From assembly GCF_010548145.1 (NCBI RefSeq), contig NZ_JAAGLN010000004.1, forward strand, positions 1-64,000: a DNA stretch of 64,000 nt. The letters run 5' to 3'. Positions within the stretch are counted from its first letter, which is position 1; each line of letters begins with the position of its first letter. Of this stretch, positions 17,373 to 64,000 are shown one piece after another. A program made the position numbers and the translations under genes. The notes beneath the pieces are model-generated. The model ran no database searches and was not told the origin of the DNA. It was given only the letters and a program-made list of their open reading frames with translations. The DNA comes from Streptomyces sp. SID10853. GTDB taxonomy: Bacteria; Actinomycetota; Actinomycetes; Streptomycetales; Streptomycetaceae.

Positions 17373-18797
17373 TCATGTCTTCGTGAGGTAGCCGAGGCCC
17401 GGATGCACGGCCCGGTACCCGTCGAGCAGCCTGCCCGCCACGTTCACGGAGTCGACCAGCGGGTGCAGGGCGAAAGCCCGGACCGCGGCCCGTGCCGATC
17501 CGCTCGCCGCCGCCTCCAGCACGGAGCGCTCCACCGCCTTCACCGCTGACACCAGGGCCGCCTCATGGCCCGTCAGCTGTGAAACCGGCAGCGGCCGGGG
17601 CCCGTTCGCGTCGATCCGGCACGGGACCTCGATGACGGCCGCCTCGTCGAGCACGGAGAGCGTACGGCCATCCGTACGGCTGTCCCGACCCTCATCCGTA
17701 CGGCCGTCCCCGCGCTCGACCGTACGGCCACCTGCCGAGGCGCTGCCGTTGGGCACGTTCAGGATCAGGGTGGCGCTCTCGTCCCGTGCGATGGCCCGCA
17801 TCAGGGCCAGCGCGACGTTCTCGTAGCCGCCCGACTCCAGGTCGTCCGCCTCACGTTCGCCCGCACCCGCGGCCTCGCGGTTCTCCGCCATGTACGTCGC
17901 CTCGCGCTCGGCACGGGTGCGGTCCCAGGCCGCGAGCGCGGGCGTCGACGGGTGCGCCATCTCGTCGTAGAAGCGGGCCTGCTGGTCGTGCAGGAAGGCG
18001 CCGCGGGTCTGTTCCGCCTGCTGGTAGACGGCGACCGTCTCGCGGTTGAAGTAGTAGTAGTGCAGATATTCGTTGGGGACCGAGCGGATCGAGCGCAGCC
18101 AGTCGGCTCCGAAGAGCCTGCCCTCCTCGAAGGAGGTCAGCAGCCGCTCGTCGTCGAACAGCCGGGGCAGCACGTCCCGCTCGCCCACATACAGCCCGCG
18201 CAGCCAGCCCAGGTGGTTCAGTCCCACGTAGTCGAGCCGCGCCGCGTCGGGGTCCGCGCCGAGGACCCGGGCGACCCGGCGGCCGAGGCCGACCGGTGAG
18301 TCGCAGATCCCGATGACCCGGCGGCCGAGGTGGGCGGCCATCGCCTCGGTGACGAGACCCGCCGGGTTGGTGAAGTTGATGACCCAGGCGTCCGGGGCGA
18401 GCCGGGCGACCCTGCGGGCGATGTCGACCGCGACCGGGACCGTCCTGAGGCCGTACGCGATACCGCCCGCGCCCACGGTCTCCTGGCCGAGGACGCCCTC
18501 GGCCAGTGCCACCCGCTCGTCGGCCGCACGGCCCGCGAGCCCGCCCACCCGGATCGCGGAGAAGACGAAGTCGGCGCCGCGCAGGGCGTCGTCGAGGTCG
18601 GTGGTGGTACGTACCTCCGGCGCGTCCGGTACGTCCACCGCCTGGTCGGCGAGGACCCGCGCCACGGCCGCCAGCCTGGCCGGGTCGAGATCGTGGAGCG
18701 TGAGGTGGGTGACCCGGCCCGCCGCGTGGTCGCGCAGCAGCGCCCCGTACACGAGCGGCACCCGGAATCCTCCGCCGCCGAGAATCGTGAGCCTCAC
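17373..18797 (-). CDS. GH4 family 6-phospho-beta-glucosidase-like enzyme
   Basis: The 474-residue protein begins at a GTG with the NAD-binding loop LTILGGGGFRVPLVYGALL. GH4 landmarks follow: FSAIRVGGLAGRAADE, a VINFTNPAGLVTEA box, GICDSP with the metal-binding Cys, and DYVGLNHLGWLRGL with the metal-binding His. GH4 enzymes cleave glycosidic bonds by an NAD+- and Mn2+-dependent redox-elimination mechanism, usually on 6-phosphosugars. An insert of about 30 residues (about 350-380), rich in Arg/Thr/Asp/Gly and encoded by repeated ccgtacggcc-type units, sits in a surface region. No sugar PTS genes adjoin it. Confidence 0.88.
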   Translation of the reverse strand: MRLTILGGGGFRVPLVYGALLRDHAAGRVTHLTLHDLDPARLAAVARVLADQAVDVPDAPEVRTTTDLDDALRGADFVFSAIRVGGLAGRAADERVALAEGVLGQETVGAGGIAYGLRTVPVAVDIARRVARLAPDAWVINFTNPAGLVTEAMAAHLGRRVIGICDSPVGLGRRVARVLGADPDAARLDYVGLNHLGWLRGLYVGERDVLPRLFDDERLLTSFEEGRLFGADWLRSIRSVPNEYLHYYYFNRETVAVYQQAEQTRGAFLHDQQARFYDEMAHPSTPALAAWDRTRAEREATYMAENREAAGAGEREADDLESGGYENVALALMRAIARDESATLILNVPNGSASAGGRTVERGDGRTDEGRDSRTDGRTLSVLDEAAVIEVPCRIDANGPRPLPVSQLTGHEAALVSAVKAVERSVLEAAASGSARAAVRAFALHPLVDSVNVAGRLLDGYRAVHPGLGYLTKT

Positions 18798-45489: not shown

Positions 45490-48400
45490 GTGACCAGCCT
45501 CGATCCCGATAGCCTGGAGACCGACGCGTACGGGCACGGGGGGATGATGGTTCGAGCACTTTTGCTCGGGGTTGGGACCTTTGAGAGCGTGGTCAACGGC
45601 GAGTGGAACCCCATGTCGGAGGGGTTCCGTCCGCTGCCGTCGGTTGAACCGCAGGTGCGTGAACTCGCCGCGGTGCTTTCGCGCTTCGACGGGCTGAACG
45701 TCGGTGAACCGGTGATCAACGCGGATCGGGTCAGCACTGAGGAGAGCTGGCGGCAACTACGGCACGATTCGGCGAGTCGGCCGCGTATCGTTCACTTTGC
45801 TGGTCACGGGGCTCTTCGCCGCCGGGTCTTGTACTTGCCCGTGCACGACAGCCGTCCGACCGACCTCCCGGAGTCGGCGATCGATGTAGGTCGATGGCTG
45901 AACGAGGTCGAGCACGGATCCAACCAGTCTCCTGTCCTGTTCCTGCTCGATGTTTGTGGTGCAGGGGCCGCGACGGACTATCAGCTGTTCCAGGACGTCC
46001 CCGAGGGCGATCGTAGGACCTGGGTGATCGCGGCCTGCACGGCGGACGAGAGCGCCTTTGACGCACGGTTCACCAAGGCCACGGCCCAAGCGTTTGAGCG
46101 GCTCCGTTTGGGACACTGGGACATTTCTCCGACTTTGTCCCACGTGCCGGTGGAGGCTGTCGCCGACGAGATCGCACGGGAGCTGGTCCGCCTCGGTGAG
46201 GGATATCCGCAGACCGTGGTGCACTCGCCGCGCCGAGCCGCCTCGTTGCCAGTACCGGAGTTCTTCGCCAATCCGGCGTTCAGTACAGACGGCTGGCAAC
46301 GTCTTCGGAGCCGACTGCGATTTGCAGTCCGGGAACTAGCGACGGAGTTCGACCCCGGTCTGGACCCGGTCCACTTCCTCACCCGGGCGTCCGGCCGCCT
46401 GGACGATGCGGCTGCGATCATGGCCTGCCTATTCACTGGGCGAACCCGTGAGCTGGCCCAGATTCGCTCCTGGCTGGCGAGCGACGAAACCCTGTTGCTG
46501 GTCACCGGAAGCCCTGGGGTCGGAAAGTCGGCACTGCTGGGGGTAACGGTCTTCCTGTCGCACAACCAGCTCGCCGAGCTGAGCGCCGGGCTGGTTGGCC
46601 GCATTCCTGCTCAGTTCCGCCCGGAGCGTCGTTACCCGACTCTTGTCGCGGTCCATGCCCGGCACCGGAGCATGGCCGAGGTGCTTGCTTCGATCATGGC
46701 CCAACTGACTCCCGAGGACACGGAGCCGGCCGCCGCTAGCTGTGAGCCAGTTCTCGACCAGCTCAAACGCATCGCCCAGGACCTACCAGAACCGGTAATA
46801 CTCATCCTCGATGCCGTTGACGAAGCCCTGGAGAGCGACCGCATCACCCGCGATCTGCTACCCGAGCTCCTGTGCACGCTCCGCCCCGACGGTCGCCCCG
46901 CCTTCCGAGCACTCGTAGGAATGCGCCCGCCGCAGACGGACAGCCAGCGGTTCTGGCGAGCGCCTGGCCCCCGCGGGGTGGTGCTTAACCTGGACACCTC
47001 TTCCAGCATCGAGACCCTTGCGAACGACCTCACAACCTACATCGCCGACATCCTGTACAGCGCACCCGGCTACAGCGACCAGGCCCTCCGCGAGTCCGTA
47101 GCCCGTGCGGTTGCCACTCCGATTGCTCATAGCCGCGGGCGCAGCACCTTCCTCATCGCAGCACTCTTCGCCGACTTCCTGCGGGCCGGTGCACCCCTGG
47201 AACCTGCCGAGGCGGTCGCCCGGCTGCCGCAGACGCTGCCGCACCTACTCGAACTGCACTTGCGGACCACGCTGGACGGTGACCCGTGGATGCGGCACGT
47301 AATGGTGGGGCTGGCACAAGCGCGGGGTCAGGGTATGCCACTGGAGCTTGTGGCGGCAGCGGCCACCGCTGCCGCCATGGCCGCAGGTCAAGGGCTTCGC
47401 CCCCTGACACCGGGTGAGGCCCGCGAGAAGCTGGCCACCGCCCGTTTCTATCTACGGACGAACATCGACTCGGACGGGCGTCAGCTCTACCGGTTCTTCC
47501 ACGAGACGATCACCGAACACTTCCGTGACGCCGGGGCCGAACTCGACGGGCTCACCGACAAGCTCTTCCACGAGCTACTGTCGGCTGTCCCCGGATGGTG
47601 GGGTGCGGAGGGGCCTCGGTGGGACCTCGGTGCACCCTATCTGCTACGACACCTTATGGATCATGCCGCCGCTGTGCCGGGCGGTTCCGCAGTCGACCAG
47701 ATGTTCCTGCACCCGGAGTACCTAGTCCGCGCCGACCGCAACAGCATCTGGGGAGCCGTTCACAGGACGCAAGCGCCCACGGCGCGGCGAGCCGGAGCCG
47801 CTTACCACAAGGCATTCGGTCGTGGCAGCCTCTTTGGAGAGGACGGATTGCTGGAGACACGGCGTGCGAGGCTTCAGCAGAGCCTTGTGACCTACCGGGC
47901 GGCCGGACTGGCGCGCCATCTTCAAGACGAACAGGCAGTGCTCTGCACGCGCTGGAGTACGGGCTTGCCTGAGGAGTCCCTGCTGCACGTCATCACCAAG
48001 GACGAGTTGGGCACCACGGTGTCGGCCCTGGCCCTGGGAGCTGCCCATCGACGGCTCTTCGCTGTGTTCGGCGGCACCGACGGCTCCCTCCAAGCGTGGG
48101 ACATCGCACCGCGCCGAACCGGCGCCGTCCTCCGGTATTCCTCGACGCACTGGAAAGACAGACATGCCATCACTCACATGGTGATCATGGATCTGGAGGA
48201 GCGGGCGGTCATTGCCATGGTGACTGACCAGAACGTACTGCGACTGCACGATCTCGCCACGGGTGCGCTCGTTGCCGACGCGTACCTCGACGGCGCCGGG
48301 ATCTCTGCCTTGGCGGTCGCCGACACTGGGGACGAAACCGTCCTTGTAGTTGGTCGGGTCAATGGTGACATCAGCCAGATCGGCCTGCTGGATGAGTCGT

Positions 48401-50070
48401 TCGGCAAGACCCTGGACACCGTCAACGCCGGGAACACCGCCATCTCCTCGATACTCGCAGTGGAGGCTGCGGACGGTTCCCTCGCGATCCACTATGTTTG
48501 CGCCGCACCTCAAGATGACGGGCCGAGGGTGCTGCGCAAACTGGACGGGCGGCCCGTCTGCCTCACATCGGCCGGCGAGCTCCAAGCAGTGCGGATCCAG
48601 CGCACCAACGAGCCGGCCCCGCTGTTCTCCCTCGTCGCCTACACCGCCAGCATGTACGCGGTCCGGGCGAACGGTGACACCGTCCAGGTCGTCACGCGCC
48701 CAGAGGACAGAAGGCTGGCGCTAGGGGATATCCGCCGCATCGACCGCTTTCAGCTCGCGCTGACCGCCCATCGCGACGGCAACATGCGAGTGTGGGACCT
48801 TGACGTTTGCCCACGCTTCGGTCACGGCCAAAACCATTGGCACCCCGCCACAATGCTGGGCACCATCCGGATCGGCGGCTCGGAGATCGCACTCAGCGCC
48901 GAACTCGAGTCCGGCACGATCAAGGCTTGGGACCTGAACACCGGCTCCGAGGATCGAGAATTGACCGACCTGGGCAGGCTCAGACATGCCGCCACCGTGA
49001 CGGCCAGCGACGCGTCCTACATCGTCACGGTGACCGCGGAGAATGAGCTCGACACCTGGAATGTCCGTGAGGATGCACTGGAATCGACGGTCTGCCTCCC
49101 CGCCCCGGCCACCGCGTTGGCCGCTGTGGCGCACGGCGATTCGGTGTGGGCCGTGGTCGGCGGTGCCGACGGCAGTATCCATGTCTGGGACACGATCAAG
49201 GGATCGCCTTCCCATCTCCTCGCCAACGTGGAAGGGCCGGTCACAGAGCTGGTCGCAGGCGCCGTTGGCGGCGAGTCGCTCCTGATCAGCGTCCACAATG
49301 AACACAGAGTTCATCTCTGGTCGATGGCTGACAGCACCCTGCGGCAAGCGATCACGCTGGACCGGATCGGAGCGGTCGCAATGCAGGGCGAGCGCCTTTT
49401 CGCTGCTGAGCAATCGTCGGACGACGATCAGGTGCGGGTCTGGGACCTTGTGACTGCCTCGCTCGTGGGTTCCGTCCCGGTGGCCGACCCGCGGGTGATG
49501 GCTGTCAGCCAAGTGAACGGCAGGCCGGTACTCGTGGCCGCTGTCAGCGAGGCGGAGGTACAGGCGTGGGATGTCGAATCCGGCGATCCCCTTGGACCGC
49601 CGGCCCCAGTCCCGGATCGAGTACACACGATCGCCCCCTACGAGAACGGCGTGCTGGTAGGCAGCAAGGCCGGCCATGTCACGGCCCTCGGCTGGACCTG
49701 CTCCGCAACGGCGCCGGGGCTCCGTCCGACGCGGCCGACCGTCCGCGTCACCCACGTCCTGGCATGGTTGCCGGGCGAACTGCTATGTGGCGATGCCCGC
49801 GCAGACGGATGGGAGTTGCACACCGTCGACGAATGGGAGAGAGGACTGCCGCCTTCGTCCGGCCTGGTCTGCAACCGCTCCATCGCTGCGACGACTGCCC
49901 AACTCTACGATGCTCTCGTCGACGTACTGACGCCCGATGGATTTGAGGTCGTTCGACTGGAGGCACACATGTACGAGATCAGCAAGGTCGACGGCGTGAC
50001 CGCCGGCGGTCCGTGGCGATTTCCGGCGTACTCCGTTCACTGTTACTCGGAGGAAGGATCAGAGCAGTGA
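45490..50070 (+). CDS. Caspase-like / NACHT-type ATPase / WD40 protein
   Basis: The 1526-residue protein has an N-terminal caspase-like (peptidase C14/CHAT) fold: RALLLGVGTFES, catalytic His H106 in IVHFAGHG and Cys C156 in FLLDVCGAG. A STAND/NACHT-type ATPase follows (TGRTRELAQIRSWLA; Walker A LLVTGSPGVGKSALLG, K346; Walker B PVILILDAVDEAL), then a helical region to about residue 800. About 700 residues of WD40-like beta-propeller repeats end many blades with VWD or AWD (SLQAWDIA, MRVWDLD, IKAWDLN, IHVWDT, VRVWDL). This is an NLR-like sensor-protease layout. It overlaps the lipase-like gene. An alternative start is the double ATG near 45547. Confidence 0.88.
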   Translation: MTSLDPDSLETDAYGHGGMMVRALLLGVGTFESVVNGEWNPMSEGFRPLPSVEPQVRELAAVLSRFDGLNVGEPVINADRVSTEESWRQLRHDSASRPRIVHFAGHGALRRRVLYLPVHDSRPTDLPESAIDVGRWLNEVEHGSNQSPVLFLLDVCGAGAATDYQLFQDVPEGDRRTWVIAACTADESAFDARFTKATAQAFERLRLGHWDISPTLSHVPVEAVADEIARELVRLGEGYPQTVVHSPRRAASLPVPEFFANPAFSTDGWQRLRSRLRFAVRELATEFDPGLDPVHFLTRASGRLDDAAAIMACLFTGRTRELAQIRSWLASDETLLLVTGSPGVGKSALLGVTVFLSHNQLAELSAGLVGRIPAQFRPERRYPTLVAVHARHRSMAEVLASIMAQLTPEDTEPAAASCEPVLDQLKRIAQDLPEPVILILDAVDEALESDRITRDLLPELLCTLRPDGRPAFRALVGMRPPQTDSQRFWRAPGPRGVVLNLDTSSSIETLANDLTTYIADILYSAPGYSDQALRESVARAVATPIAHSRGRSTFLIAALFADFLRAGAPLEPAEAVARLPQTLPHLLELHLRTTLDGDPWMRHVMVGLAQARGQGMPLELVAAAATAAAMAAGQGLRPLTPGEAREKLATARFYLRTNIDSDGRQLYRFFHETITEHFRDAGAELDGLTDKLFHELLSAVPGWWGAEGPRWDLGAPYLLRHLMDHAAAVPGGSAVDQMFLHPEYLVRADRNSIWGAVHRTQAPTARRAGAAYHKAFGRGSLFGEDGLLETRRARLQQSLVTYRAAGLARHLQDEQAVLCTRWSTGLPEESLLHVITKDELGTTVSALALGAAHRRLFAVFGGTDGSLQAWDIAPRRTGAVLRYSSTHWKDRHAITHMVIMDLEERAVIAMVTDQNVLRLHDLATGALVADAYLDGAGISALAVADTGDETVLVVGRVNGDISQIGLLDESFGKTLDTVNAGNTAISSILAVEAADGSLAIHYVCAAPQDDGPRVLRKLDGRPVCLTSAGELQAVRIQRTNEPAPLFSLVAYTASMYAVRANGDTVQVVTRPEDRRLALGDIRRIDRFQLALTAHRDGNMRVWDLDVCPRFGHGQNHWHPATMLGTIRIGGSEIALSAELESGTIKAWDLNTGSEDRELTDLGRLRHAATVTASDASYIVTVTAENELDTWNVREDALESTVCLPAPATALAAVAHGDSVWAVVGGADGSIHVWDTIKGSPSHLLANVEGPVTELVAGAVGGESLLISVHNEHRVHLWSMADSTLRQAITLDRIGAVAMQGERLFAAEQSSDDDQVRVWDLVTASLVGSVPVADPRVMAVSQVNGRPVLVAAVSEAEVQAWDVESGDPLGPPAPVPDRVHTIAPYENGVLVGSKAGHVTALGWTCSATAPGLRPTRPTVRVTHVLAWLPGELLCGDARADGWELHTVDEWERGLPPSSGLVCNRSIAATTAQLYDALVDVLTPDGFEVVRLEAHMYEISKVDGVTAGGPWRFPAYSVHCYSEEGSEQ

Positions 50071-50933: not shown

Positions 50934-51312
50934 GACTCTCGTCGGTCTGCGTCTTCAACGATGTAGCGTCGCGGGCAACGCTCCTGCATGCAGGAGCGTG
51001 CTCACCTCGCACGACTGGGTTCGCTGTCAAACGACTACATTCCATGTCAGAGGACAACTGGGACGCAGGCGACGCTCGTACGTCGCCGGAGGCGCCGCAT
51101 AGGGGCCATCAACCCCATCCCGCGTCAATGTCAGCGCAGACGGAGGCCAAGGCCACAACCCGAGGCCATTCGCCGACTTCTCGCCCCCAGGCACGTGTCC
51201 GCTGGCCTGGAGACATGCCAGAAGGAGCAGCAGTCGGTCCCTGGGGACAGCCCTGCCGTATCCCCATAGAAACCCGGTGCGCACGACAGACAGAGTGCTG
51301 AATAGTTGCTGC
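50934..51312. other. Non-coding gap with a 22-bp perfect palindrome
   Basis: No supported gene. acgctcctgca/tgcaggagcgt at 50978-50999 is a perfect dyad just downstream of the hydrolase stop; it may be a terminator or a binding site. The rest shows nothing clear. Confidence 0.5.
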
Positions 51313-52025
51313 ATGGATGCGATCGACGCCGCACGTGCCGCTATCAAGGAGCACCACCCTGATGCCCGGGCCGCCTTCCTCGGAGGCAGCGTCGTGACGG
51401 ACCGCCGCACGGCGATGTCGGACCTCGACATCGTGGTGCTGCTTCATGGACCCCCAGCCCCGTACCGGGCAAGCGTCCAGCACGGTGAGTGGCCCGTGGA
51501 GATGTTCGTGCACACCGAGGCAACGTGGCACGCATTCGTCGAACGGGAAGTACGAAAGCGCAGATCACCGCTGCTCTGGATGTGCGCCGACGGAATCCTG
51601 CTCTTCGACCACGACGGGGTCGGCGCCTACGTCGCCGCTGAGGCCCGGAAGCTGACCGCGGCGGGACCGCCCACGGTGTCGGCAGAAGAGATCGATGATC
51701 GCCGCTATGCGATCACTGACCTTCTCGACGACCTTGCGGGGAGCGAAGATCAGAGCGAACGGTTGTTCATTGCCACCGAATTGGTGCGACGCACCAGCGA
51801 GTTGGCGAGTTGGCGCTGACCGTCGGCGGATCTTGGAACGGAGGCGGGAAGTGGCTGGCGCGCCGTCTTGAGACCACGGCGCCGGGACTCAGCATGCGCC
51901 TTCACGACGGCCTCCGTGACGTACTGGCGAGGCGGATTGAGCCACTCGTGGAAGTCGTGGACGAAGTGCTGGAGCAGGCCGGCGGTCGGCTGTGGGTCGG
52001 CTATAAGCGCGGTGGCACTCCGTGA
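51313..52025 (+). pseudogene. Nucleotidyltransferase gene broken by an 8-bp tandem duplication
   Basis: From ATG 51313 the frame encodes a polymerase-beta-type nucleotidyltransferase (AAFLGGSVVTDRRTAMSDLDIVVLL, GS and DxD). The frame stops at 51819. A second frame, 51810-52025 (LALTVGGSWNGGGKWLARRLE to VGYKRGGTP), reads as its natural C-terminal half. At the join, gagttggc is present twice in tandem (51799-51806 and 51807-51814). Removing one copy fuses the frames into one protein of about 234 residues. The first part alone keeps the catalytic motif, so a truncated protein may still be made. Confidence 0.75.
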
Positions 52026-54705: not shown

Positions 54706-54797
54706 CTGATCGGGTGCTGCGCGACCAGCCTCCTCCGGTGTTCTTGAGTCACGGCGGAAGGCGCCGCCTTCGACGCCGGCGGAGAAAGAGGTGGGCT

Positions 54798-55325
54798 TTG
54801 AGAAACCACACGAGCACCTCCCGAGACCGGCCGGGCAGTGTGCTGGAGCACGCCACCAGGCGACCGGTCTCCGCGCCCTCACACGGGTACGCCGATGGCG
54901 GCGATACGACCACGCTGATCACGGACCTGCCATACGGGCCGAGGGCGGCCGCGGTCGCTCGGGAAGCCGTCGCTGTGGCGCTCCTCGGCACCGAGGCGGA
55001 CCTGCTCGACGACGCCCGACTGATCGGGTCGGAACTCGCAACGAATGCGTTCGCCTCAGGAAACCCGCCTCTGGTCCTGTGCGTGGACCGCAGGAGCCCG
55101 GTCGTCGGTGGCCTGGAGGTCGAGATCACCGTGACCGACGGTGGCTGCCTTCGACCCGCGCCTACCTCTCACCCAGCGCCCGAGGAGCAGGCCGAATCGG
55201 GGCGGGGCCTGGTCCTCGTCGAGGCACTGGCCGACGCCTGGTCCCTGACGACCGGCGCCGACGGCACCCGCGCCTGGTGCCGTCTGACGCGCGCGCCCAG
55301 CTCTTCGCCTGCGAGAACGCTCTGA
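54798..55325 (+). CDS. HATPase-type ATP-binding protein (anti-sigma-like)
   Basis: A protein of about 175 residues from TTG 54798, preceded by ggagaaagagg. The GHKL/HATPase_c_2 fold is recognisable: N-box DDARLIGSELATNAF, a VEITVTDGG box and a G-box-like EQAESGRGLVLVEALADAW. Streptomyces has many such orphan kinase-like proteins, frequently paired with Xre regulators near biosynthetic clusters. Kinase or ATP-binding activity on a partner anti-anti-sigma-like protein is possible. The next frame starts inside its stop codon. Confidence 0.75.
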   Translation: MRNHTSTSRDRPGSVLEHATRRPVSAPSHGYADGGDTTTLITDLPYGPRAAAVAREAVAVALLGTEADLLDDARLIGSELATNAFASGNPPLVLCVDRRSPVVGGLEVEITVTDGGCLRPAPTSHPAPEEQAESGRGLVLVEALADAWSLTTGADGTRAWCRLTRAPSSSPARTL

Positions 55326-55369
55326 TGCCCGCGCCTGCAAGATCCTGTCTTCGAAGGAGGCACCAAACG

Positions 55370-56680
55370 GTGCGCATCGACCATGCGACCCCACCGTCCC
55401 CGTCCGCTGAAGCGCCGACGGCCGTTCGCCATCCGCGCGTAGTCGTCGCCCTTCACGAGGGCCTGTACGGCGCCGAGTCGGGCACCGGCTTCAGTAACCG
55501 TGCCTTCCTCACGGCGCTCACCCGCCTCCTGCCGACGGGCCGCCTCTCCGTGATCTCCCCACCCATCTCTGAAACAGCGGTCGCGCACGATTTGCGGTGG
55601 AGCCGCGAGGTCCAGCTGATGCTGGACGAGGCGGAGGCCGAGGTGATCACGATTCCCGAGGTCCAGATGCCCCCGGATTCGGTCCGCGGCTCCACGCACC
55701 TGTGCGCCCTGGCGGGGAAGGCTGCCGCACGCGTCGCCGATCGCACGAGCCGCTGTCTGCTCGTCGGCCTCGACGTTCCCTTCCTCGGCCTCGCGGCTTA
55801 CACGCCACCGACCACAGACCTGCTGGTCATCCCCCGCTCCGCAGCGGCCCTGACGCGGCCTGGAGACCTGTCCCGAATCCGCTGGGAACGTGAGGCCCTG
55901 CGGGCGGCGACCGCCCAGCGCGGTCGTATCGGGGCCATCTCCACCCACATGCGAAACCACCTCGTCACGAACTGTGCCATCCCGCAGGCGCACATCGTGA
56001 ACATCCCGAACGGGCTGATCCGAGAGGAGATGGCCAGGCCGACGCATGTTCGGCCCCTGCCCTTCAAGGCCCGAGCCGGCTTCCTGCTTGCGCTGGGGCG
56101 CGCGGTGCCCAGCAAGGGGTTCGAAGACCTCCTGGAGGCGCTGCACGTTCTGAAGGAACGAGGGGTCCGCCTGCCACACCTACTCCTGGCGGCCGTCACG
56201 TCAGGTGAACACGAGCACCTGAGCTCGTACCAGAGGCACCTGGCAGCAGGTATCCGCACCTACGGCTTGGACGCGACGCTGATCACCCGCTTCACCCCCT
56301 CCATCCGCTCCTGGCTGCACAGCCCCGCGCTGCACGCGGTCGTCGTTCCCTCGCGCGAGGAGCCCTTCGGACGGATACCTCTGGAGGCGTTTGCGGCGGG
56401 GGCGGGGCCGGTCGTCGCGACCAGCGCCGGCGGACTGGCCCAGACCGTCATCGAAGGCGAGACCGGATTCACCGCCGCACCCAGGGACTCCCAGTCTCTG
56501 GCGTCCGCCCTGCACCGAGCCCTGACCGCCCTGCCCCGAGAACGCGAGCGGCTCCGGAACGCCGGTGCGGCTCTGGTGCGTTCACGCCACGACTACGAGG
56601 CCAACATCGGCTCCGCCATCGGCCGCATCGCCCCCTGGGCTCTGGCTCCGTCGCCCACCGGGGAAAGCAGGGGCCGGTGA
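55370..56680 (+). CDS. GT4-family glycosyltransferase
   Basis: The 436-residue protein starts at GTG 55370, chosen for the gaaggagg ribosome-binding site; an ATG at 55325 overlaps the upstream stop. The N-terminal part has GLYGAESGTGFSNRAFL. The C-terminal Rossmann domain has ALGRAVPSKGFEDLLEAL, then PSREEPFGRIPLEAFAAGAGP, the E-x7-E nucleotide-sugar-binding motif of retaining GT-B GT4 enzymes. It lacks membrane segments. The stop overlaps the next start (GTGA). The acceptor is unknown. Confidence 0.85.
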   Translation: MRIDHATPPSPSAEAPTAVRHPRVVVALHEGLYGAESGTGFSNRAFLTALTRLLPTGRLSVISPPISETAVAHDLRWSREVQLMLDEAEAEVITIPEVQMPPDSVRGSTHLCALAGKAAARVADRTSRCLLVGLDVPFLGLAAYTPPTTDLLVIPRSAAALTRPGDLSRIRWEREALRAATAQRGRIGAISTHMRNHLVTNCAIPQAHIVNIPNGLIREEMARPTHVRPLPFKARAGFLLALGRAVPSKGFEDLLEALHVLKERGVRLPHLLLAAVTSGEHEHLSSYQRHLAAGIRTYGLDATLITRFTPSIRSWLHSPALHAVVVPSREEPFGRIPLEAFAAGAGPVVATSAGGLAQTVIEGETGFTAAPRDSQSLASALHRALTALPRERERLRNAGAALVRSRHDYEANIGSAIGRIAPWALAPSPTGESRGR

Positions 56681-57675
56681 CCCGGCCGGTGGTGCTCATC
56701 AACCTGGAATCCCCGCACTCGTTCTGGCGGTTGTCCGCCGAGCACAAGCGTTCCCTTCGTGCTTCTTTCCCGGGCGTGGATTTCCGTACGGCCGCCGAGG
56801 AGGACGTGCCGTACCGGCTGGCGGAAACCAGCATCTACTTCGGCTGGCGGTTCGAACCCTCCTGGCTGGCCGGCGCACCGCATCTGAACTGGATCGCATC
56901 CCCGGCCGCCGGCACCGACCATCTGCCCGTCACCGAGGCGCACTCCGCCGGGGTGGCCCTGACCCGCTCGTACGGGTTCCACGGCCGTCCCATGGCCGAG
57001 CACGCCATGGGGCTGATCCTGGGCTTCTCTCGCGGGTTGTTCACGAGCCAGCGCGTTCAGCGAAACCGGAGCTGGTGGAAGGACGACCTCGCCGAGGAGT
57101 TCTTCGACCTGGCCGGGTCGACGATGACCATCGTCGGCTGCGGCAGCATCGGAGGCCACCTCGCCCGCACCGCCCGCGCCTTCGGTATGGACGTGATCGG
57201 AGTACGCCGGACGCCGCCTGTGGCAGCGAGGGACGGGATCACCTGGATGCACGCCTCGGCGGTGCACCAGGCCGTCGCCATCGCCGACGTGGTGGTCGAC
57301 CTGCTGCCGACCACCCGGGCCACGAACCATCTCTTCGACCACGCCCTCTTCACGGCCTGCAAGCCGGGAGCCATCTTCCTCAACCTCGGCCGTGCGACAA
57401 CCGTCGACCAGTCGGCCCTCCTGGCCGCCCTCCATACCGGCCACCTGCGGGGCGCCGCGCTGGACGTATCCGACCCGAGACCCCTGCCCGCTCGCCATCC
57501 GCTGCGGCTCCACCCCCGGGTCGTCCTCACGCCGAAGAGCTCGACGCTCTGCCACACGTACATGAACGAGGCGGTCGCGTTCTTCGCCGAGAACCTGCGC
57601 CGATTCCTTGCTGGCCAGCCGCTCAACGGCCTGGCCGAAATACCCGACGCCCATTCCCCCCTCGCAGGAGGCTGA
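56677..57675 (+). CDS. D-2-hydroxyacid-dehydrogenase-like protein with altered active site
   Basis: The 332-residue protein has a D-isomer-specific dehydrogenase fold with NAD-binding motif TIVGCGSIGGHLAR (G154-x-G156-x-x-G159). R239 in FLNLGRATTVDQ matches the substrate Arg. The usual Glu in DVFxxEPLP is Arg268 in DVSDPRPLP, and the usual His in TPH is Lys287 in LTPKSST. The classical Glu-His acid/base pair is therefore absent, so it may bind NAD(P) and act differently or be noncatalytic. The GTG start overlaps the glycosyltransferase stop. Confidence 0.85.
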   Translation: MTRPVVLINLESPHSFWRLSAEHKRSLRASFPGVDFRTAAEEDVPYRLAETSIYFGWRFEPSWLAGAPHLNWIASPAAGTDHLPVTEAHSAGVALTRSYGFHGRPMAEHAMGLILGFSRGLFTSQRVQRNRSWWKDDLAEEFFDLAGSTMTIVGCGSIGGHLARTARAFGMDVIGVRRTPPVAARDGITWMHASAVHQAVAIADVVVDLLPTTRATNHLFDHALFTACKPGAIFLNLGRATTVDQSALLAALHTGHLRGAALDVSDPRPLPARHPLRLHPRVVLTPKSSTLCHTYMNEAVAFFAENLRRFLAGQPLNGLAEIPDAHSPLAGG

Positions 57676-57678
57676 CCC

Positions 57679-58791
57679 ATGCCCACCACCCGCCACCGTG
57701 ACCTGACCGCAGCCTTCGCGGCCACCGGCCGCAACCACCCCTACCTGGCCTTCACCCTGAACTCGTTGTGCAACCTGGACTGCGTGTTCTGCAAGCCCCG
57801 CTGCATGCCGGACTACGGGCACAAAGACCGCCCCCTGACCACCGCCGACTACGCGGCCATCGCCGCCGAGGCCGGGATTTGGAACATCCGGAAGGCGCAC
57901 TGCTCCGGCGGCGAACCGACCCTGCGGGCGGACATCCTCGACGTGATCGAGGGCCTCGCCGACGGCCTCGGCCCCGACGCCGCGATCGGCATGACGAGCC
58001 ACGGCAACCTACGCCGCGGCCTGAGCGTGGAGAAGCTGCACCGCGCCGGACTGACGTACCTCAACCTCAGCCTCCACAGCCTCGACCCGAAGCGATCCGC
58101 CACGATCATGGGCGGCGGCGACCCGCGCACGACTATGCGCACCCTCGACAACGCCCTCTCCCTCGGAATGCGGGTGAAGATCAACTGCGTCCTCCAGCGC
58201 ACCTACCTCGACGACGCCTTCGCCGTGGCCGAGCTGGCCCGCGACCTACCTGTCGCCGTCCGTCTGATCGAACTCCAGAACATCGGGCCCGCACAGGCGC
58301 TGTTCGACACCGAGTTCATCAACGAGGCGGACGTCCGCAATCGTCTCCACGAATGGTTCGCGGGTGCGGGGGAGGTCTCTCGTGAACAGCTCGGGGTCCG
58401 TAGCCCCGGGCAGTACCTCCGTCCCGACGGCTGGGCAGGCTCGATCGGCTTCATCTCCAACTCCAGCTGTGCCACATGCTCCGACGCCAATCGCATCAAG
58501 ATCACGCCCACTGGTGTGGCCCGCCCCTGCATCCTCCACAACCGTGACATCCCCCTGAAGCCCCACCTCGCCGACAGCACCCTCGGAGATGCCTTCGCCC
58601 ATCTCTTCCAGGCCATGCTCGACCGCAACACGAACGACGCCTGGCAGGGCTTCCATTACGTCGACTACGACCTTCGCTGGGACCGGATGGAGCGTCCCGA
58701 GGGCACCCCGGTCCTGCTGCCTCTCCTCCCCGTCCTCCCCTCGGACGCGGCCCAGCCGTCGTGCACCCGATCCTCCACCGGGGAGCGGTGA
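57679..58791 (+). CDS. MoaA-like radical SAM enzyme
   Basis: The 370-residue protein has a radical SAM cluster motif NSLCNLDCVFCKP (C31, C35, C38), the GGEP motif in HCSGGEPTL, and LTYLNLSLHSLDP. A C-terminal set SSCATCSDANRIKITPTG ... ARPCI (C264, C267, C284) resembles the second 4Fe-4S cluster of MoaA, with spacing CX2CX16C instead of CX2CX13C. The C-terminal Gly-Gly tail of true MoaA is absent. No other molybdopterin genes are nearby, so it likely modifies a nucleotide or sugar in a different pathway. It follows the dehydrogenase after 3 bases. Confidence 0.85.
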   Translation: MPTTRHRDLTAAFAATGRNHPYLAFTLNSLCNLDCVFCKPRCMPDYGHKDRPLTTADYAAIAAEAGIWNIRKAHCSGGEPTLRADILDVIEGLADGLGPDAAIGMTSHGNLRRGLSVEKLHRAGLTYLNLSLHSLDPKRSATIMGGGDPRTTMRTLDNALSLGMRVKINCVLQRTYLDDAFAVAELARDLPVAVRLIELQNIGPAQALFDTEFINEADVRNRLHEWFAGAGEVSREQLGVRSPGQYLRPDGWAGSIGFISNSSCATCSDANRIKITPTGVARPCILHNRDIPLKPHLADSTLGDAFAHLFQAMLDRNTNDAWQGFHYVDYDLRWDRMERPEGTPVLLPLLPVLPSDAAQPSCTRSSTGER

Positions 58792-59909
58792 TGGTCGCGG
58801 CCGAAGCACCGCCTCTCTACCCGGGTCTCGGAACGCTGTACGAACACGAGCTGGACGCCCACGGGGTCGGGGCCGTGATGCTCACGCACAAGTGGCAGCC
58901 GGCCGATCTGCTGGCTCCCCACTCCGACATCGACGTGCGTGTCCTCCTTCCCGAGGCACCCGCGAACTGGGAGGAGTGGAATCACCGTCTGGCCGCCGCG
59001 CACAAGTCCGCGGTCCGCCGGGAGGTCTCCCACGGGCGGCTTCTGGAGCATCCTCCCGGGTTCGCATTCACCGTGCCCGAAGCGGACGGACGGCTCGTCT
59101 GCGCACCTGAGCTCGCGACCTGGTCGCTGATCAGCGGTAGCGCCCGGGACTTCCAACGCTGGAGGTCCCGGGCCCAGATGGCCCCCTGGTGCGAGATCGA
59201 CGAACGCTTCTACCGGGCAATTCTCCAGTCGCGGCTCGGAGGCCGGTACCAGCTCGCGGCGGACAGTACGGACAACGTGGTCGAGGACATCACTGCGTAC
59301 CGGCGTCACTGCGTGGCCTGGCACTACCTCGCCCCCTGCTGGTTCGCCGCCGCCGCACTCGCGACACGGACGCGCTGTCCCGGCAAGACCGCCGCGCTCA
59401 CCCAGTGGCGCCCGGACGGGCTGGACGCGTACGCCGAGCTGTTTCTCCGGCACTCCGAAGACGGACCCAACGGGCGACTCCGCAGCCCGCGCCACCTGCT
59501 CCGCGCGGCACACGTCTCCCTGGAAGCGGCCATGCGCCGCATTCCGCAGGCAAGCCACCCTCCTGACCAGGGCAAGGATTCCGCTGCAACCGACTGGGCA
59601 ATGACCGCCGGAATGCTCCGCGTACGTGTCGCCCGCTGGCTGTACTACCTCGATCCGCCGCCCGGTGTCGCGACCGAGTACCTGATACGGCGGGAGGCAA
59701 AGGAACTTCGTTCCGCCGCACAGACCCTGAACGCGCTCGCGGAGGACGGGGCAACTCCCGCCCAACGCCTGGCCGCCCGAATGGCCGGGCTGATCCCCGC
59801 CGGACCGACGACTCCCGACACCCTGCGCACCACCCTCGCGCTCTGGCACCGGCAGAAGTCCACGGTGCAGGAATTCCTGAGCCTCCCGCCCAGTGCCATC
59901 CACCCCTGA
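58791..59909 (+). CDS. Nucleotidyltransferase-like protein
   Basis: The 372-residue protein starts in TGATG overlap with the preceding gene. The N-terminal segment VMLTHKWQPADLLAPHSDIDVRVLL carries the hG-(x)-S/DxD-type pattern of the polymerase-beta nucleotidyltransferase superfamily. The remainder is helical (VEDITAYRRHCVAWHYLAPCWFAAAALA). It has no close family match that I recognise; aminoglycoside nucleotidyltransferase-like or uncharacterised members are possible. Expressed with two radical SAM enzymes, it could activate or tag an intermediate. Confidence 0.65.
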   Translation: MVAAEAPPLYPGLGTLYEHELDAHGVGAVMLTHKWQPADLLAPHSDIDVRVLLPEAPANWEEWNHRLAAAHKSAVRREVSHGRLLEHPPGFAFTVPEADGRLVCAPELATWSLISGSARDFQRWRSRAQMAPWCEIDERFYRAILQSRLGGRYQLAADSTDNVVEDITAYRRHCVAWHYLAPCWFAAAALATRTRCPGKTAALTQWRPDGLDAYAELFLRHSEDGPNGRLRSPRHLLRAAHVSLEAAMRRIPQASHPPDQGKDSAATDWAMTAGMLRVRVARWLYYLDPPPGVATEYLIRREAKELRSAAQTLNALAEDGATPAQRLAARMAGLIPAGPTTPDTLRTTLALWHRQKSTVQEFLSLPPSAIHP

Positions 59910-59925
59910 CACAAGGAGCCCCGCC

Positions 59926-60723
59926 ATGCCCGCGCGTGCGTCCCAGCCCCGCGCCCTGAAGACGGCGAAGATCAAGATCACGACGAAATGCAACCGTTCC
60001 TGCGACTTCTGTATCTTCGCCGACGGCGCCCAAGGCGAGAACATGGCCCCAGAGCTGTTCTCCACCATCCTGACCCGGCTGGAGACCATCCCTTTCCAGC
60101 AGTTGCACATCAACGGCGGCGAACCCACCGTGCACCGGGACTTCCCCGCTCTCAGCGAAGCCGCCCGGACACGCCTGCCGGACAAGGTCATGGTTCTGGG
60201 CACGAACGCCATCACGCTGGCCCGCAACCAGCGGATCATGGAGGCCACGCTCCGCTCGTACGACCAGATCCTCATCGGCTGCGACGACGAGCACGAGAAC
60301 TACGCCGAAGTGCACGCCGTCGTGCCCCGTCTCCGCGAAGCCGGCAAGACCGTGGTCGTCAACAGCGTGCTGGAAGGCATCAGTTCCTCCCGTCTCGTGG
60401 AGCTCGCGAGGCTGTGCGACACGTACGGCGCAATCCACGTCACCAACCACGTGCACCACGTCGACGTCGGCCAGCCGGCGAACGAGCTGCGCGGCATCTG
60501 CGACCGCTATCTCGACCAGCACCTGATGATCGAGATGGACGGCTCCTGCTACCGCTGCTTCAACGCCATGGCGAAGGACGACAGCGAGTTCAGCATCTGG
60601 GACGAGGACCTCGCGGCCAAGGTGTTCGCCCCCCGAGGCCATCACTTCCGGTTCTGCCTTCGCTGCCACGAGTACACCGACTCGGGCGCCGCTCTCCTGC
60701 CTGCCCGCATTCCGACCGCATGA
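59926..60723 (+). CDS. Radical SAM enzyme with C-terminal Cys cluster
   Basis: The 265-residue protein begins with KIKITTKCNRSCDFCIF (C22, C26, C29), and QQLHINGGEPTVHRDFP carries the GGEP motif. Near the end DGSCYRCFNA and FRFCLRCHEY give extra Cys pairs, suggesting a SPASM/Twitch-like auxiliary cluster. It is smaller than typical SPASM proteins. The substrate is unknown. The ribosome-binding site is aaggagc before ATG 59926. Confidence 0.85.
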   Translation: MPARASQPRALKTAKIKITTKCNRSCDFCIFADGAQGENMAPELFSTILTRLETIPFQQLHINGGEPTVHRDFPALSEAARTRLPDKVMVLGTNAITLARNQRIMEATLRSYDQILIGCDDEHENYAEVHAVVPRLREAGKTVVVNSVLEGISSSRLVELARLCDTYGAIHVTNHVHHVDVGQPANELRGICDRYLDQHLMIEMDGSCYRCFNAMAKDDSEFSIWDEDLAAKVFAPRGHHFRFCLRCHEYTDSGAALLPARIPTA

Positions 60724-60746
60724 CTCCAGACCGGAGGTACACGACC

Positions 60747-62471
60747 ATGCCCGCAGTCCTCGGGCTGAACTTCCACCACGACACCGCCGCCGCCTTGATC
60801 GTCGACGGCCGCCTCTACGCGGCAGAAGAGGAACGCTGGAGCGGCGTCAAGCACAACCACCCCACCCGCAAGGGCACGCTCGCCGCACCGGTCCGTGCCC
60901 TTCAGTGGTGCCTGGAGGCCGCCGGCATCGAACCGCAAGACGTCGACGCCGTCTGGGCCGCCTCCATGCGCCCCAACCCCGCAGCCGGCTGGTGGCTCAC
61001 CGAGGAGCGGGACGAACTCGCCGCTCTCTTACCTGCCCCGCTCGGTAACCATCTCCGCCTTCTCTCCCACCACACCGCCCATGTGCTCTCCGGGTACCTG
61101 CTCTCCGGACACGACCACGCGGCGGGCCTCGTCATTGACGCCGGCGGCTCCTCCCTCGGCTCCGACTTCGGTCCGGGGCGGGAACGCATCACCGGCTACG
61201 ACCTGCGGCCGGATCGCATCGACCGCGTCCACCAGAGCATGCCGACCGTGGTTCCCGGCCCTGTCGGACCTCGGCGCGTTCACTCCTCCCTCGGGCACTT
61301 CTACCGAAACCTGGCCCGCCGAGTGATCCCGCCGGGCGACGAACCCGAGGGCAGCATGATGGCGCTTGCCGCGTTCGGCGACCCCCAGCGTTACGGTTCG
61401 CAGATCCGCGAGCTCGTACGGCTCGGCGACGACGGCGAGGTCCGGATCGGCCATCCCTGGGGCTCGGCGGACAGCAGCACACCGCTGCTGCTCCGTGGCC
61501 GCGTCTGGACCGCTGACAACGTCGCAGAGCAAACCGACGCGGAACGGGCCGACCTGGCCGCCGCAGTTCAGGATGTCTTCTCCGAGTCGGTCATCCACAT
61601 CGCACGCCATCTGCAACGGCTCACGAGAGCCTCGGCGCTGGTGTTCTCGGGTGGGTGCGCCCTGAACTCCCACCTCAACTGCCGGCTGGCCGATGACAGC
61701 GGCTTCGACACCCTCTTCGTGGCACCGGCACCACACGACGCGGGGACCGCTGTGGGCGCCGCCTTGTACGCCTGGCACTACCAGCTCGGGCAGGAATGTC
61801 TCCAGGTGCCGACCGACGCGGCCTGGGGCCCTAACCCGGGCACTCTCAAAGCGGGTGCGATGCCATCCGGGTACCGCGCTCTGACCGGCCTGGGGGCGGA
61901 CCTGGCACCGGCGGCGGCAGCGCTGCTCGCTCAGCACCGCATTGTCGGCTGGGTGCAGGGAGCGCTCGAATTCGGGCCCAGGGCCCTCGGGCACCGCTCG
62001 GTCCTCGCCCACCCGGGCCACGCCGCCACGCGGGATCGACTCAACGCGATCAAGCAACGAGCTACGTACCGCCCGTTCGCCCCGGCCGTCCTCGCCGAGC
62101 ACGCCACGGAGTGGTTCATGTCGACGGGCGACCCCTTCATGAACCGCGTCGCCCACGTCCGCCGGTGCCGAGCCGACCGCATAGCCGCGGTCACCCACCA
62201 CGACGGCACCGCGCGCGTCCAATCCGTGGCCACAGACCACCAGGGCCTGCACGAACTCCTCCAGCGGTTCCACGAGCACACCGGCCTGCCGCTGCTGTTG
62301 AACACCTCCTTCAACCTCAAAGGCACGCCGATCCTGCGATCCGCCGAGCAGGCCGTACAGGCGGCAGCCGGCCTCGGGCTCGACGCCCTCGCCGTCGGAG
62401 ACACCCTCCTGATCGCCGACCACGTCCTCGACCCCCGGGCTCTACCCCAGCCATCCTTACGAGAGGGGTGA
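60747..62471 (+). CDS. Carbamoyltransferase (NodU/CmcH family) with two TTA codons
   Basis: The 574-residue protein begins AVLGLNFHHDTAAALIVDGRL, then HHTAHVLSGYLLSG, GLVIDAGGSSLGS and LVFSGGCALNSHLN (Kae1-like adenylation part). A C-terminal YrdC-like/carbamoyl-binding segment reads GALEFGPRALGHRSVLAHP and LNTSFNLKGTPI. NodU/CmcH/TobZ enzymes carbamoylate a hydroxyl on a sugar or antibiotic using carbamoyl phosphate and ATP. Codons 95 (61029-61031) and 571 (62457-62459) are TTA, which in Streptomyces need the bldA tRNA, so production should be developmentally timed. Confidence 0.92.
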   Translation: MPAVLGLNFHHDTAAALIVDGRLYAAEEERWSGVKHNHPTRKGTLAAPVRALQWCLEAAGIEPQDVDAVWAASMRPNPAAGWWLTEERDELAALLPAPLGNHLRLLSHHTAHVLSGYLLSGHDHAAGLVIDAGGSSLGSDFGPGRERITGYDLRPDRIDRVHQSMPTVVPGPVGPRRVHSSLGHFYRNLARRVIPPGDEPEGSMMALAAFGDPQRYGSQIRELVRLGDDGEVRIGHPWGSADSSTPLLLRGRVWTADNVAEQTDAERADLAAAVQDVFSESVIHIARHLQRLTRASALVFSGGCALNSHLNCRLADDSGFDTLFVAPAPHDAGTAVGAALYAWHYQLGQECLQVPTDAAWGPNPGTLKAGAMPSGYRALTGLGADLAPAAAALLAQHRIVGWVQGALEFGPRALGHRSVLAHPGHAATRDRLNAIKQRATYRPFAPAVLAEHATEWFMSTGDPFMNRVAHVRRCRADRIAAVTHHDGTARVQSVATDHQGLHELLQRFHEHTGLPLLLNTSFNLKGTPILRSAEQAVQAAAGLGLDALAVGDTLLIADHVLDPRALPQPSLREG

Positions 62472-62476
62472 CGGAA

Positions 62477-63091
62477 ATGGCCGTTGCCAATCTGCCTCAC
62501 ATCCTGACCACACTCGCCACCAGCACATGGGCCGTCGGGGACCGTTCCCGCGCCCGTGTGGCTGCCGGTCTGGCCCTCGCGATCTACGCCGGGCACACCC
62601 GAGATCAGGGCACCCCGTACGTCCAGCATCCGCTCGCCGTCGTCACGGTTCTGCGGTCCGAGCTCGGCGTCACACAGCCCGAAACCCTCCTCCTCGGCCT
62701 TTTGCACGACGCCCTGGAGGTCGATCCGGGCTCAGAGGCTCTCGTCACCCACCAGCTGGGGGCACCCTTCGCTGAACGCCTACGCGCGATGACGCCCGAC
62801 CATCGGCTCGAACGCCGGCCCAAGGTTCCAGGCGACGAGAACCGATGGCGCGTGAAGACAGGGGCCCTCCCCGCGGAGGAGCTCCTGGTACGGCTGGCCG
62901 ACCGTATCCACAACCTGCGCGACCTGGCCGCCTCGCCGAACCACGAACGCCGGCGGAAGTTCGTACGGAACCTCACGGACTTCCACCTCCCCCTGGCCGC
63001 CGCCGCACGCCGCCTCAACCCTCACCTGGAAGCCGCGCACACGCTGCTCAACGCCGAGTACATCCACCACCAACAGGAGATACGCCCGTGA
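62477..63091 (+). CDS. RelA/SpoT-type HD-domain protein (MESH1-like)
   Basis: The 204-residue protein has HD-superfamily motifs matching the (p)ppGpp hydrolase domain: TPYVQHPLAVVTVL (His), LLLGLLHDALEVD (His-Asp) and RLADRIHNLRDL (Asp). No synthetase or regulatory domain is present, as in the small MESH1-type hydrolases. In this operon it may remove a 3'-phosphate or diphosphate from a nucleotide intermediate. GTG 62468, overlapping the upstream stop, is an alternative start; ATG 62477 has better spacing from gagaggg. Confidence 0.82.
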   Translation: MAVANLPHILTTLATSTWAVGDRSRARVAAGLALAIYAGHTRDQGTPYVQHPLAVVTVLRSELGVTQPETLLLGLLHDALEVDPGSEALVTHQLGAPFAERLRAMTPDHRLERRPKVPGDENRWRVKTGALPAEELLVRLADRIHNLRDLAASPNHERRRKFVRNLTDFHLPLAAAARRLNPHLEAAHTLLNAEYIHHQQEIRP

Positions 63092-64000
63092 GACGGATCG
63101 TGTACTCGATGGAGCCGGTCGGTCGGACCGGCGGCCGGGTCTACCTCCGGATGCTTCACAAGGCGACCGCCGACGATGTCGAGTGGCGGACGGTTCCGGA
63201 CCACAAGCGCACGTACCGCGTCCGTCGCTGGCGGAAAATCCGCCACCTCGCCCGACTGGTCCCGACCGTCCGGGCGCTGAGTTCCGCCGCCACCGGCACC
63301 TTCGTGTGGGACGACCTCAGCCTGCTGCTCTTCACACCGGAGATGCGGGCCCGCACGGTGTTCCTCCTGCACCACTACGAGCCGTTGCAGCACGACTCCA
63401 CTCCCGTGGAGGCCATGCTCTGGGAACGGCTGTTCCGGGTGCTGCCCCAGTGTGCGGCCGTGGTGTGCGTATCCCCGTACTGGGCTGACTTCCTCCGGTC
63501 CCGCGGTGTCCACAACGTACGGGTGATCTACAACGCCTTCGACATGACCGAGATCGAACGGGCACGCGACCTCGACCGGGCCGAGTGCCGCGCCGAATTC
63601 GACCTGGCCGCGGACACGATCGGCGTGTACGCGGGCAAGGCCGTCCACTGGAAGGGCACCGCGGAGGTCGCGGAGGCCCTGGCCGGCGCACCCGGGCTTC
63701 AAGTGATCACCAGCGGCAGCAACACCATCGGCTTCGGCGGTACGCACTACGACGTGGAGCGCGAGCGATACCTGCGGCTGCTTCGGGCATGCGACGTCGG
63801 CGTCTTCCTGCCCCGGATGCGGGAGGGCTGGAGCCGCTGCGCAGCCGAGGCACTGCTGCTCGGCCTGCCCTGCCTGATCCGACCGGTCGCGGGCCTCGGC
63901 GATCTCGCGGCCCTGACGGGCCAGCCGGCGCCAGACCTCGACCGTCTGTCGACGCAGGTCCGGGAACACGCTACGGCGCGCCGAACCGAAGCCAAGGCCG
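63088..64000 (+). CDS. GT4-like glycosyltransferase, 3' end beyond the window
   Basis: GTG 63088 overlaps the HD gene stop (GTGA), and at least 304 codons stay open to the window edge. It begins RRIVYSMEPVGRTGGRVYLR. VFLLHHYEPLQHDS, then VVCVSPYWADFLRSRGV and VRVIYNAFDM mark the N-terminal GT-B domain. GVYAGKAVHWKGTAEVAEAL is the start of the C-terminal domain, and REGWSRCAAEALLLGLPCLI carries the Glu of the nucleotide-sugar-binding region. It is a second sugar transferase of the operon. Confidence 0.85.
   Translation, partial: MRRIVYSMEPVGRTGGRVYLRMLHKATADDVEWRTVPDHKRTYRVRRWRKIRHLARLVPTVRALSSAATGTFVWDDLSLLLFTPEMRARTVFLLHHYEPLQHDSTPVEAMLWERLFRVLPQCAAVVCVSPYWADFLRSRGVHNVRVIYNAFDMTEIERARDLDRAECRAEFDLAADTIGVYAGKAVHWKGTAEVAEALAGAPGLQVITSGSNTIGFGGTHYDVERERYLRLLRACDVGVFLPRMREGWSRCAAEALLLGLPCLIRPVAGLGDLAALTGQPAPDLDRLSTQVREHATARRTEAKA

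Follow-up and report, generated by a model that had tools for sequence, protein, structure and literature searches.

A dehydrogenase homologue with lysine and a second basic residue at the catalytic histidine and glutamate positions, in an uncharacterised Streptomyces operon with a companion glutamyl-tRNA synthetase gene

We propose that the dehydrogenase homologue (DH) encoded in the window, the whole 64,000-nucleotide stretch of DNA analysed here, would be an active, NADPH-preferring 2-oxoacid reductase (or hydroxyacid dehydrogenase) of a small-molecule operon, in which Lys287 would act as the acid/base; we put the probability of this reading, the best explanation overall, at roughly 0.6. 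The exchange of the catalytic residues is real, conserved and under selection. The most interesting part, and a larger find than the residue swap, is the uncharacterised operon together with its companion synthetase gene, gltX2.

Results

Active-site positions of the dehydrogenase

The gene and the three codons of interest are as follows.

56677..57675, plus strand: DH, D-2-hydroxyacid dehydrogenase homologue of 332 amino acids with a GTG start and an open frame, carrying R239, R268 and K287
57391..57393, plus strand: Arg239 codon, the substrate-carboxylate Arg, kept and invariant in the orthologue alignment
57478..57480, plus strand: Arg268 codon, at the catalytic-Glu position
57535..57537, plus strand: Lys287 codon, at the catalytic-His position

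The protein matches PF02826 (1.6e-44, 151.8 bits) and PF00389 (2.1e-8, 34.4 bits), both over the cut-off in the Pfam search, and its predicted NAD-binding and catalytic domains assign it to the D-2-hydroxyacid dehydrogenase superfamily. The motif NLGR ends at R239, DVSDPR at R268 and LTPK at K287. The closest solved-structure sequences found by phmmer, 3hg7, 8hpg and 3evt, align with DH gap-free between R239 and K287; in the columns of 268 and 287 they carry E and H, the DVxxxEPLP and TPH of all three reading DVSDPRPLP and TPK in DH. Among the superfamily features the substrate Arg is present, and the catalytic Glu and catalytic His are absent. The first-pass annotation, which had reported a retained NAD motif and substrate Arg with Glu replaced by Arg268 and His by Lys287, is borne out by these alignments and by GCGSIG at 154-159, the GxGxxG motif.

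Another His or Glu aligned to the catalytic positions was looked for and none was found. A one-residue gap separates the motifs in three of seven canonical rows compared (L005, L006 and L114), the other four being gap-free; a misalignment hiding such a residue is excluded by the absence of gaps against 3hg7, 8hpg and 3evt and by the list of invariant columns. No invariant acidic residue occurs at positions 264-287 in the alignment of 19 orthologue sequences, the window's included, and D266 was rejected as a stand-in acid, being non-acidic in the clade of 54-56% identity. H102 is invariant in the same alignment but is located in another loop, and as a replacement His it was discarded, since it is also present in 8hpg and 3evt, which have both E and H. 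Also invariant in the 19 rows are G79, the three motif glycines G154, G156 and G159, and G175-V176-R177-R178; a 27-row alignment gives the same residues except R178, which is nearly so. W134-K135 is invariant in both alignments and aligned with a WKR stretch of presumed SerA rows. The AlphaFold model of DH is poor (mean pLDDT 57).

Conservation in orthologues and control family members

Orthologues were taken from a genus sample (19 of 392 genomes at E <= 1e-40, own genome included), a family sample (3 of 200 genomes, two already in the genus sample and one new, G396) and named genome contigs (28 loci, 27 from Streptomyces and one from Planomonospora, partly overlapping the other samples), and by identity to the window protein they form two groups, at 68-95% and at 54-56%. 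The 46 loci yield 40 distinct sequences, the window's own excluded, and 39 of these are readable at all three positions, one of them (L044) carrying a run of N elsewhere. Every one of the 39 has R239 and K287, and position 268 is K in 33 and R in 6, so alignment with homologues from similar clusters finds the basic residues conserved. The fortieth, from Streptomyces sp. WAC08241, is frameshifted in the assembly and its second fragment reads K and K. Purifying selection is evident in dN/dS values of 0.22-0.30 in all six orthologue pairs, and decay to a pseudogene is ruled out by these values, the open frame and the strict conservation.

The control set comprised 79 family members: seven from the window's own genome, two from distant relatives (G690 and G834), and 70 from a PF02826 search of 21 genomes, for which 30 rows were returned directly and 40 were hand-picked from the list. 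Of the 79, 77 came from those 21 genomes and two from the distant relatives; nearly all represent related genomes. After removal of seven without a tblastn hit and one duplicate, 71 distinct rows remained, with R-E-H in 70 and R-D-H in one. In the phylum sample four of 396 genomes match DH at E <= 1e-60, namely our own, G067, already among the orthologue genomes, and the two relatives, which share 41-42% identity with DH and have E and H; the operon was not seen around these two, where only short contigs were available.

Position of the dehydrogenase in its family

A maximum-likelihood tree of 79 rows, containing nine operon DHs as representatives and no type IIIK sequence, unites these DHs in a clade (100/100) whose stem is long, at 1.01 changes per column. 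Its companions in a wider group (100/96) are canonical R-E-H relatives, and a long-ORF branch, to which we gave the label SerA on length and motif, stands separate from them; the program warned of long branches and of letter make-up for some rows, three DH rows among them. The best NCBIfam profile is NF041369, haloarchaeal D2HDH (2.5e-54; 184.6 bits, below the cut-off of 400), and the score against the PGDH model is 99 bits (cut-off 454). The nearest known enzymes by profile and structure-sequence matches are accordingly DDH-like (NF041369, 3hg7 and the phenylpyruvate reductase 8hpg), although 3hg7 and 8hpg keep the E and H that DH has replaced. The nucleotide loop of DH reads GVRR, where the presumed SerA rows carry Asp, and from this loop we infer a preference for NADPH.

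Lysine in place of histidine: precedent and proposed catalysis

Passages of a survey of the family (PMC6303947) describe the catalytic triad as conserved in almost all members, with two exceptions, SERA type IIIK and X4. The type IIIK enzyme of E. histolytica (PDB 4njo), as described in sections of PMC6303947 and PMC6300728, has Lys for His and no Glu and is reported to be active with Lys as acid/base, and a passage of PMC6300728 likewise reports Lys in some type 3 enzymes. The catalytic Glu, whose place is taken by Gln or Asn in formate dehydrogenases, is not strictly defining for the superfamily, since the survey passages record type IIIK and part of X4 as lacking it; exceptions are on record there for the His as well. 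Since a type IIIK enzyme with Lys is reported active, the missing Glu and His imply neither inactivity nor a new reaction. The first-pass annotation had concluded that the replacements suggest a new reaction or a binding role; the replacements stand, and the conclusion does not follow from the loss alone.

DH and the E. histolytica type IIIK PGDH belong to one superfamily and share the kept Arg, the absent Glu and the change of His to Lys. They differ in that DH lies outside the presumed Streptomyces SerA branch (in a tree that contained no type IIIK sequence), that its cofactor loop has GVR(R) in place of the conserved Asp given as a SERA feature in the survey passages (PMC6303947), and that a basic residue occupies the Glu position in all 39 readable DH orthologues. 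Because DH appears to lie in another branch, its switch to a lysine type looks independent. About half of the X4 subfamily (PDB 1qp8) has also lost both Glu and His according to the same passages, but X4 carries Trp and Val where DH carries Lys and Lys/Arg (PMC6303947). What appears to be new is the lysine solution in another branch, combined with a second basic residue at the Glu site in all readable orthologues. If the switch is independent, then the acid/base part of this large, much-used family is open to repeated rebuilding, and the DH clade offers a clean system for testing how this machinery gets rebuilt.

In the mechanism that we propose, Arg239 and the backbone of Gly79, in the presumed substrate loop, would hold the carboxylate of the substrate, and NADPH would bind at the GCGSIG/GVRR site. 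Lys287 would act as proton donor and acceptor in place of His. At position 268, where Glu would stabilise the protonated His, the Lys or Arg would lower the pKa of Lys287 and permit its action near neutral pH; alternatively this residue would bind a further acidic group on the substrate. The invariant Arg239, Gly79, GxGxxG motif and GVR(R) site argue for an active enzyme of this kind. The long stem of the clade counts against an ordinary reductase and fits a changed reaction too.

A new reaction is possible, since a second basic residue lies at the Glu position in an enzyme from an uncharacterised operon. The residue pair at 268 and 287 might work on a substrate with more negative charge, such as a phosphorylated or tricarboxylic intermediate, or else a Schiff base might form between Lys287 and a ketone, the chemistry in either case not being a 2-oxoacid/2-hydroxyacid exchange. 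Such chemistry would suit the replacement of Glu and His by two basic residues in 39/39 readable orthologues, the long stem and the invariant W134-K135 aligned with the WKR of the presumed SerA rows; a passage of PMC6300728 describes a residue of the neighbouring subunit that binds substrate phosphate in PGDH, and at a guess it is the counterpart of the W134-K135 stretch. We consider different chemistry rather unlikely, as DH retains Arg239, Gly79 and the nucleotide site and the type IIIK enzymes with Lys are reported, in the passages of PMC6303947 and PMC6300728, to carry out the normal reaction. More improbable still is a pseudoenzyme, DH serving as a non-catalytic NADP(H)-binding subunit or sensor by which another operon enzyme is held. 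The standard triad has indeed lost both of its acid/base residues in DH, and the survey passages record catalytic residues as missing from the CtBP homologue of plants and from part of X4 (PMC6303947), but strict retention of Arg239 together with one particular new residue, Lys287, in all 39 readable orthologues, and of Gly79 in every row of the 19- and 27-row alignments, is not what one would expect of a pseudoenzyme. An active lysine-type reductase remains our preferred reading.

The operon and its conserved gene order

The genes around DH are listed below; those of the operon are close or overlapping and for this reason are presumed to be co-transcribed.

54714..55325, plus strand: upstream HATPase_c_2 protein with an uncertain start; 28 of 37 loci have a match
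55322..56680, plus strand: GT4 glycosyltransferase A (GT4A), start placed to within a few codons; 36 of 37 loci have a match
57679..58791, plus strand: MoaA-like radical SAM enzyme 1 (rSAM1), with CNLDCVFC, Cys 264, 267 and 284, and a Mob_synth_C match
58761..59909, plus strand: orphan protein without a family match, with one DID motif
59893..60723, plus strand: short radical SAM enzyme 2 (rSAM2), with CNRSCDFC and C-terminal Cys pairs 219/222 and 255/258
60720..62471, plus strand: O-carbamoyltransferase of the NodU/TobZ/GdmN type, by profile matches
62477..63091, plus strand: HD-domain protein (HD_4, RelA/SpoT-like) by profile matches, start inferred
63088..64000, continuing to 64077 past the window, plus strand: GT4 glycosyltransferase B (GT4B)
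64088-65593 of the contig, beyond the window, minus strand: gltX2, divergent glutamyl-tRNA synthetase gene, directly after GT4B

The first-pass description of an operon of unusual enzymes is apt: two radical SAM enzymes, an orphan, an O-carbamoyltransferase, an HD protein and usually two glycosyltransferases. rSAM1 is not assigned as MoaA, falling under all three MoaA cut-offs (best 167.4 against 284.05 bits), and an antiphage system was rejected, PADLOC giving only low-scoring pVip matches to both radical SAM proteins (28.9-34.2 bits). The orphan has no solved-structure match at E <= 10. Against Pfam at E <= 10, Polbeta matches one of 16 members (0.18), and unrelated families do slightly better, HemY_N with three members (0.058) and Phage_zn_bind_4 with two (0.046); that the orphan may be a nucleotidyltransferase is a guess from its one DID motif and this one weak match. 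Its AlphaFold model is poor (pLDDT 47), and its profile matches two of the 396 phylum genomes, our own and G067, both operon carriers.

Gene order was examined in 37 loci, consisting of the 28 named-contig loci, eight of the second (54-56%) group and G396. The order DH-rSAM1-orphan-rSAM2-carbamoyltransferase-HD is the same in all 37, and the full order from GT4A before DH to GT4B after HD is present in 36. The remaining locus, from Planomonospora (L054), has the six genes from DH to HD, and neither GT4A nor GT4B is matched there at E 1e-5, so glycosylation of the product is not universal. Beyond gltX2 in this locus, two short ORFs at 18082-18795 resemble, on visual inspection, fragments of a GT4 glycosyltransferase and are possibly a relic of GT4A/B.

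The companion glutamyl-tRNA synthetase gene

At all 37 loci gltX2 lies within 5 kb of the gene set; a match falls within the stretch around the operon in 36, and in S. corallincola the gene is found farther along the operon's contig, some 4.5 kb beyond GT4B. The gene is broken in two of the 37 assemblies, as two pieces in L034/G006 and as a fragment in L055/G375. The window's copy retains HVGG and KLSKR and scores 419.7 bits against TIGR00464 (cut-off 289.95). The gltX2 type was found in 19/19 operon genomes tested, our own included, versus none of 12 chosen controls without the operon, two of which gave weak partial second matches. Another gltX, 50-55% identical to gltX2, is also present in all 19 operon genomes, and the presence of another gltX was checked in two more genomes too. 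At >= 69% identity the type occurs in 30 of the 392 genus-sample genomes, comprising all 19 with DH versus 11 of 373 without it. The searches scored only a few first-look candidates per genome and may have missed some, and for G375, which is 55% complete, the gltX2 fragment was the only candidate listed. gltX2 probably came from another actinomycete lineage, because it is closer to the other gltX of Planomonospora (68-69% identity) than to other Streptomyces gltX (50-55%).

Among the 11 genomes that have gltX2 and no DH, two keep a C-terminal scrap of GT4B next to it. In one, G359, the equivalent of contig positions 55199-63802 (8.6 kb) is deleted and gltX2 is retained; the flanks align at 82 and 88% and are joined within two bases, around 6703-6706 of L103, where gltX2 with roughly the final 90 codons of GT4B abuts the upstream ATPase gene. 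In the gltX tree the partner of this gltX2 is an operon-linked copy (98/86). The other nine genomes have no operon piece beside gltX2 at E 1e-5, which weighs against our overall reading in that gltX2 also has an independent existence. Ten of the 11 copies without DH are stop-free over the aligned stretch, that of G296 being broken near its start. Operon-linked and solo copies are intermingled in the gltX tree, which forces at least five changes with bootstrap support not fully settled; such a mixture would result if either was lost or transferred repeatedly. Near the solo gltX2 of G371, one of the nine genomes lacking any operon piece, a different NodU-type carbamoyltransferase (33% identity) is encoded at 1608-3380 of L105.

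Discussion

The gene set probably makes a carbamoylated, usually glycosylated metabolite, and the context hints at an antibiotic. A second copy of an essential gene is linked to biosynthetic genes in 37/37 loci, as in a target-duplicate self-resistance cluster. The divergent gltX beside the operon is probably a self-resistance gene, and glutamyl-tRNA synthetase (GluRS) would therefore be the likely target of the product. That gltX2 persists where the biosynthetic genes have been lost is more readily explained if it confers immunity than if it serves the pathway as an enzyme, although this is not proof.

The alternative, that gltX2 provides the pathway with glutamyl-tRNA (or activated Glu), draws on its constant proximity to the set and on its HVGG and KLSKR motifs and score above the TIGR00464 cut-off. 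We regard it as unlikely, though it deserves some weight, given that gltX2 is retained in 11 genomes without DH and stop-free over the aligned stretch in ten, that it outlived the operon deletion in G359, and that the Pfam matches of the operon proteins include no tRNA-dependent ligase or LanB-type domain.

Returning to self-resistance, a tentative joint reading, to which we give less than even odds, would have the operon make a carbamoylated, usually glycosylated GluRS inhibitor, with gltX2 as the immunity copy and DH as an independently evolved lysine-type enzyme making a building block. If the guess that the orphan is a nucleotidyltransferase is right, the product is perhaps a nucleotide-like mimic of glutamyl-adenylate. 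We know of no natural GluRS inhibitor. Searches of open-licence PMC papers found neither such an inhibitor nor literature on the gene cluster, and what they returned on GluRS self-resistance described no such case. Duplicate aminoacyl-tRNA synthetases that give resistance, for example mupirocin-resistant IleRS2 (PMC9437257), likewise add a further synthetase gene to the housekeeping copy; unlike the gltX2 case, the table passage of that paper has no auxiliary GluRS and gives Glu-Q-RS as its only GluRS paralogue. The operon and companion gltX point to an uncharacterised pathway in 19 of 392 sampled genus genomes, our own included, and its likely target is directly testable.

Elsewhere in the window, a very large protein (45490-50070, plus strand) has AAA/STAND-type NTPase and WD40 matches and, by eye, a caspase/CHAT-like N-terminus, and is a possible conflict or defence protein. 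A small protein (51277-51819, plus strand) has an NTP_transf_2 match just below the cut-off (20.6 against 21 bits).
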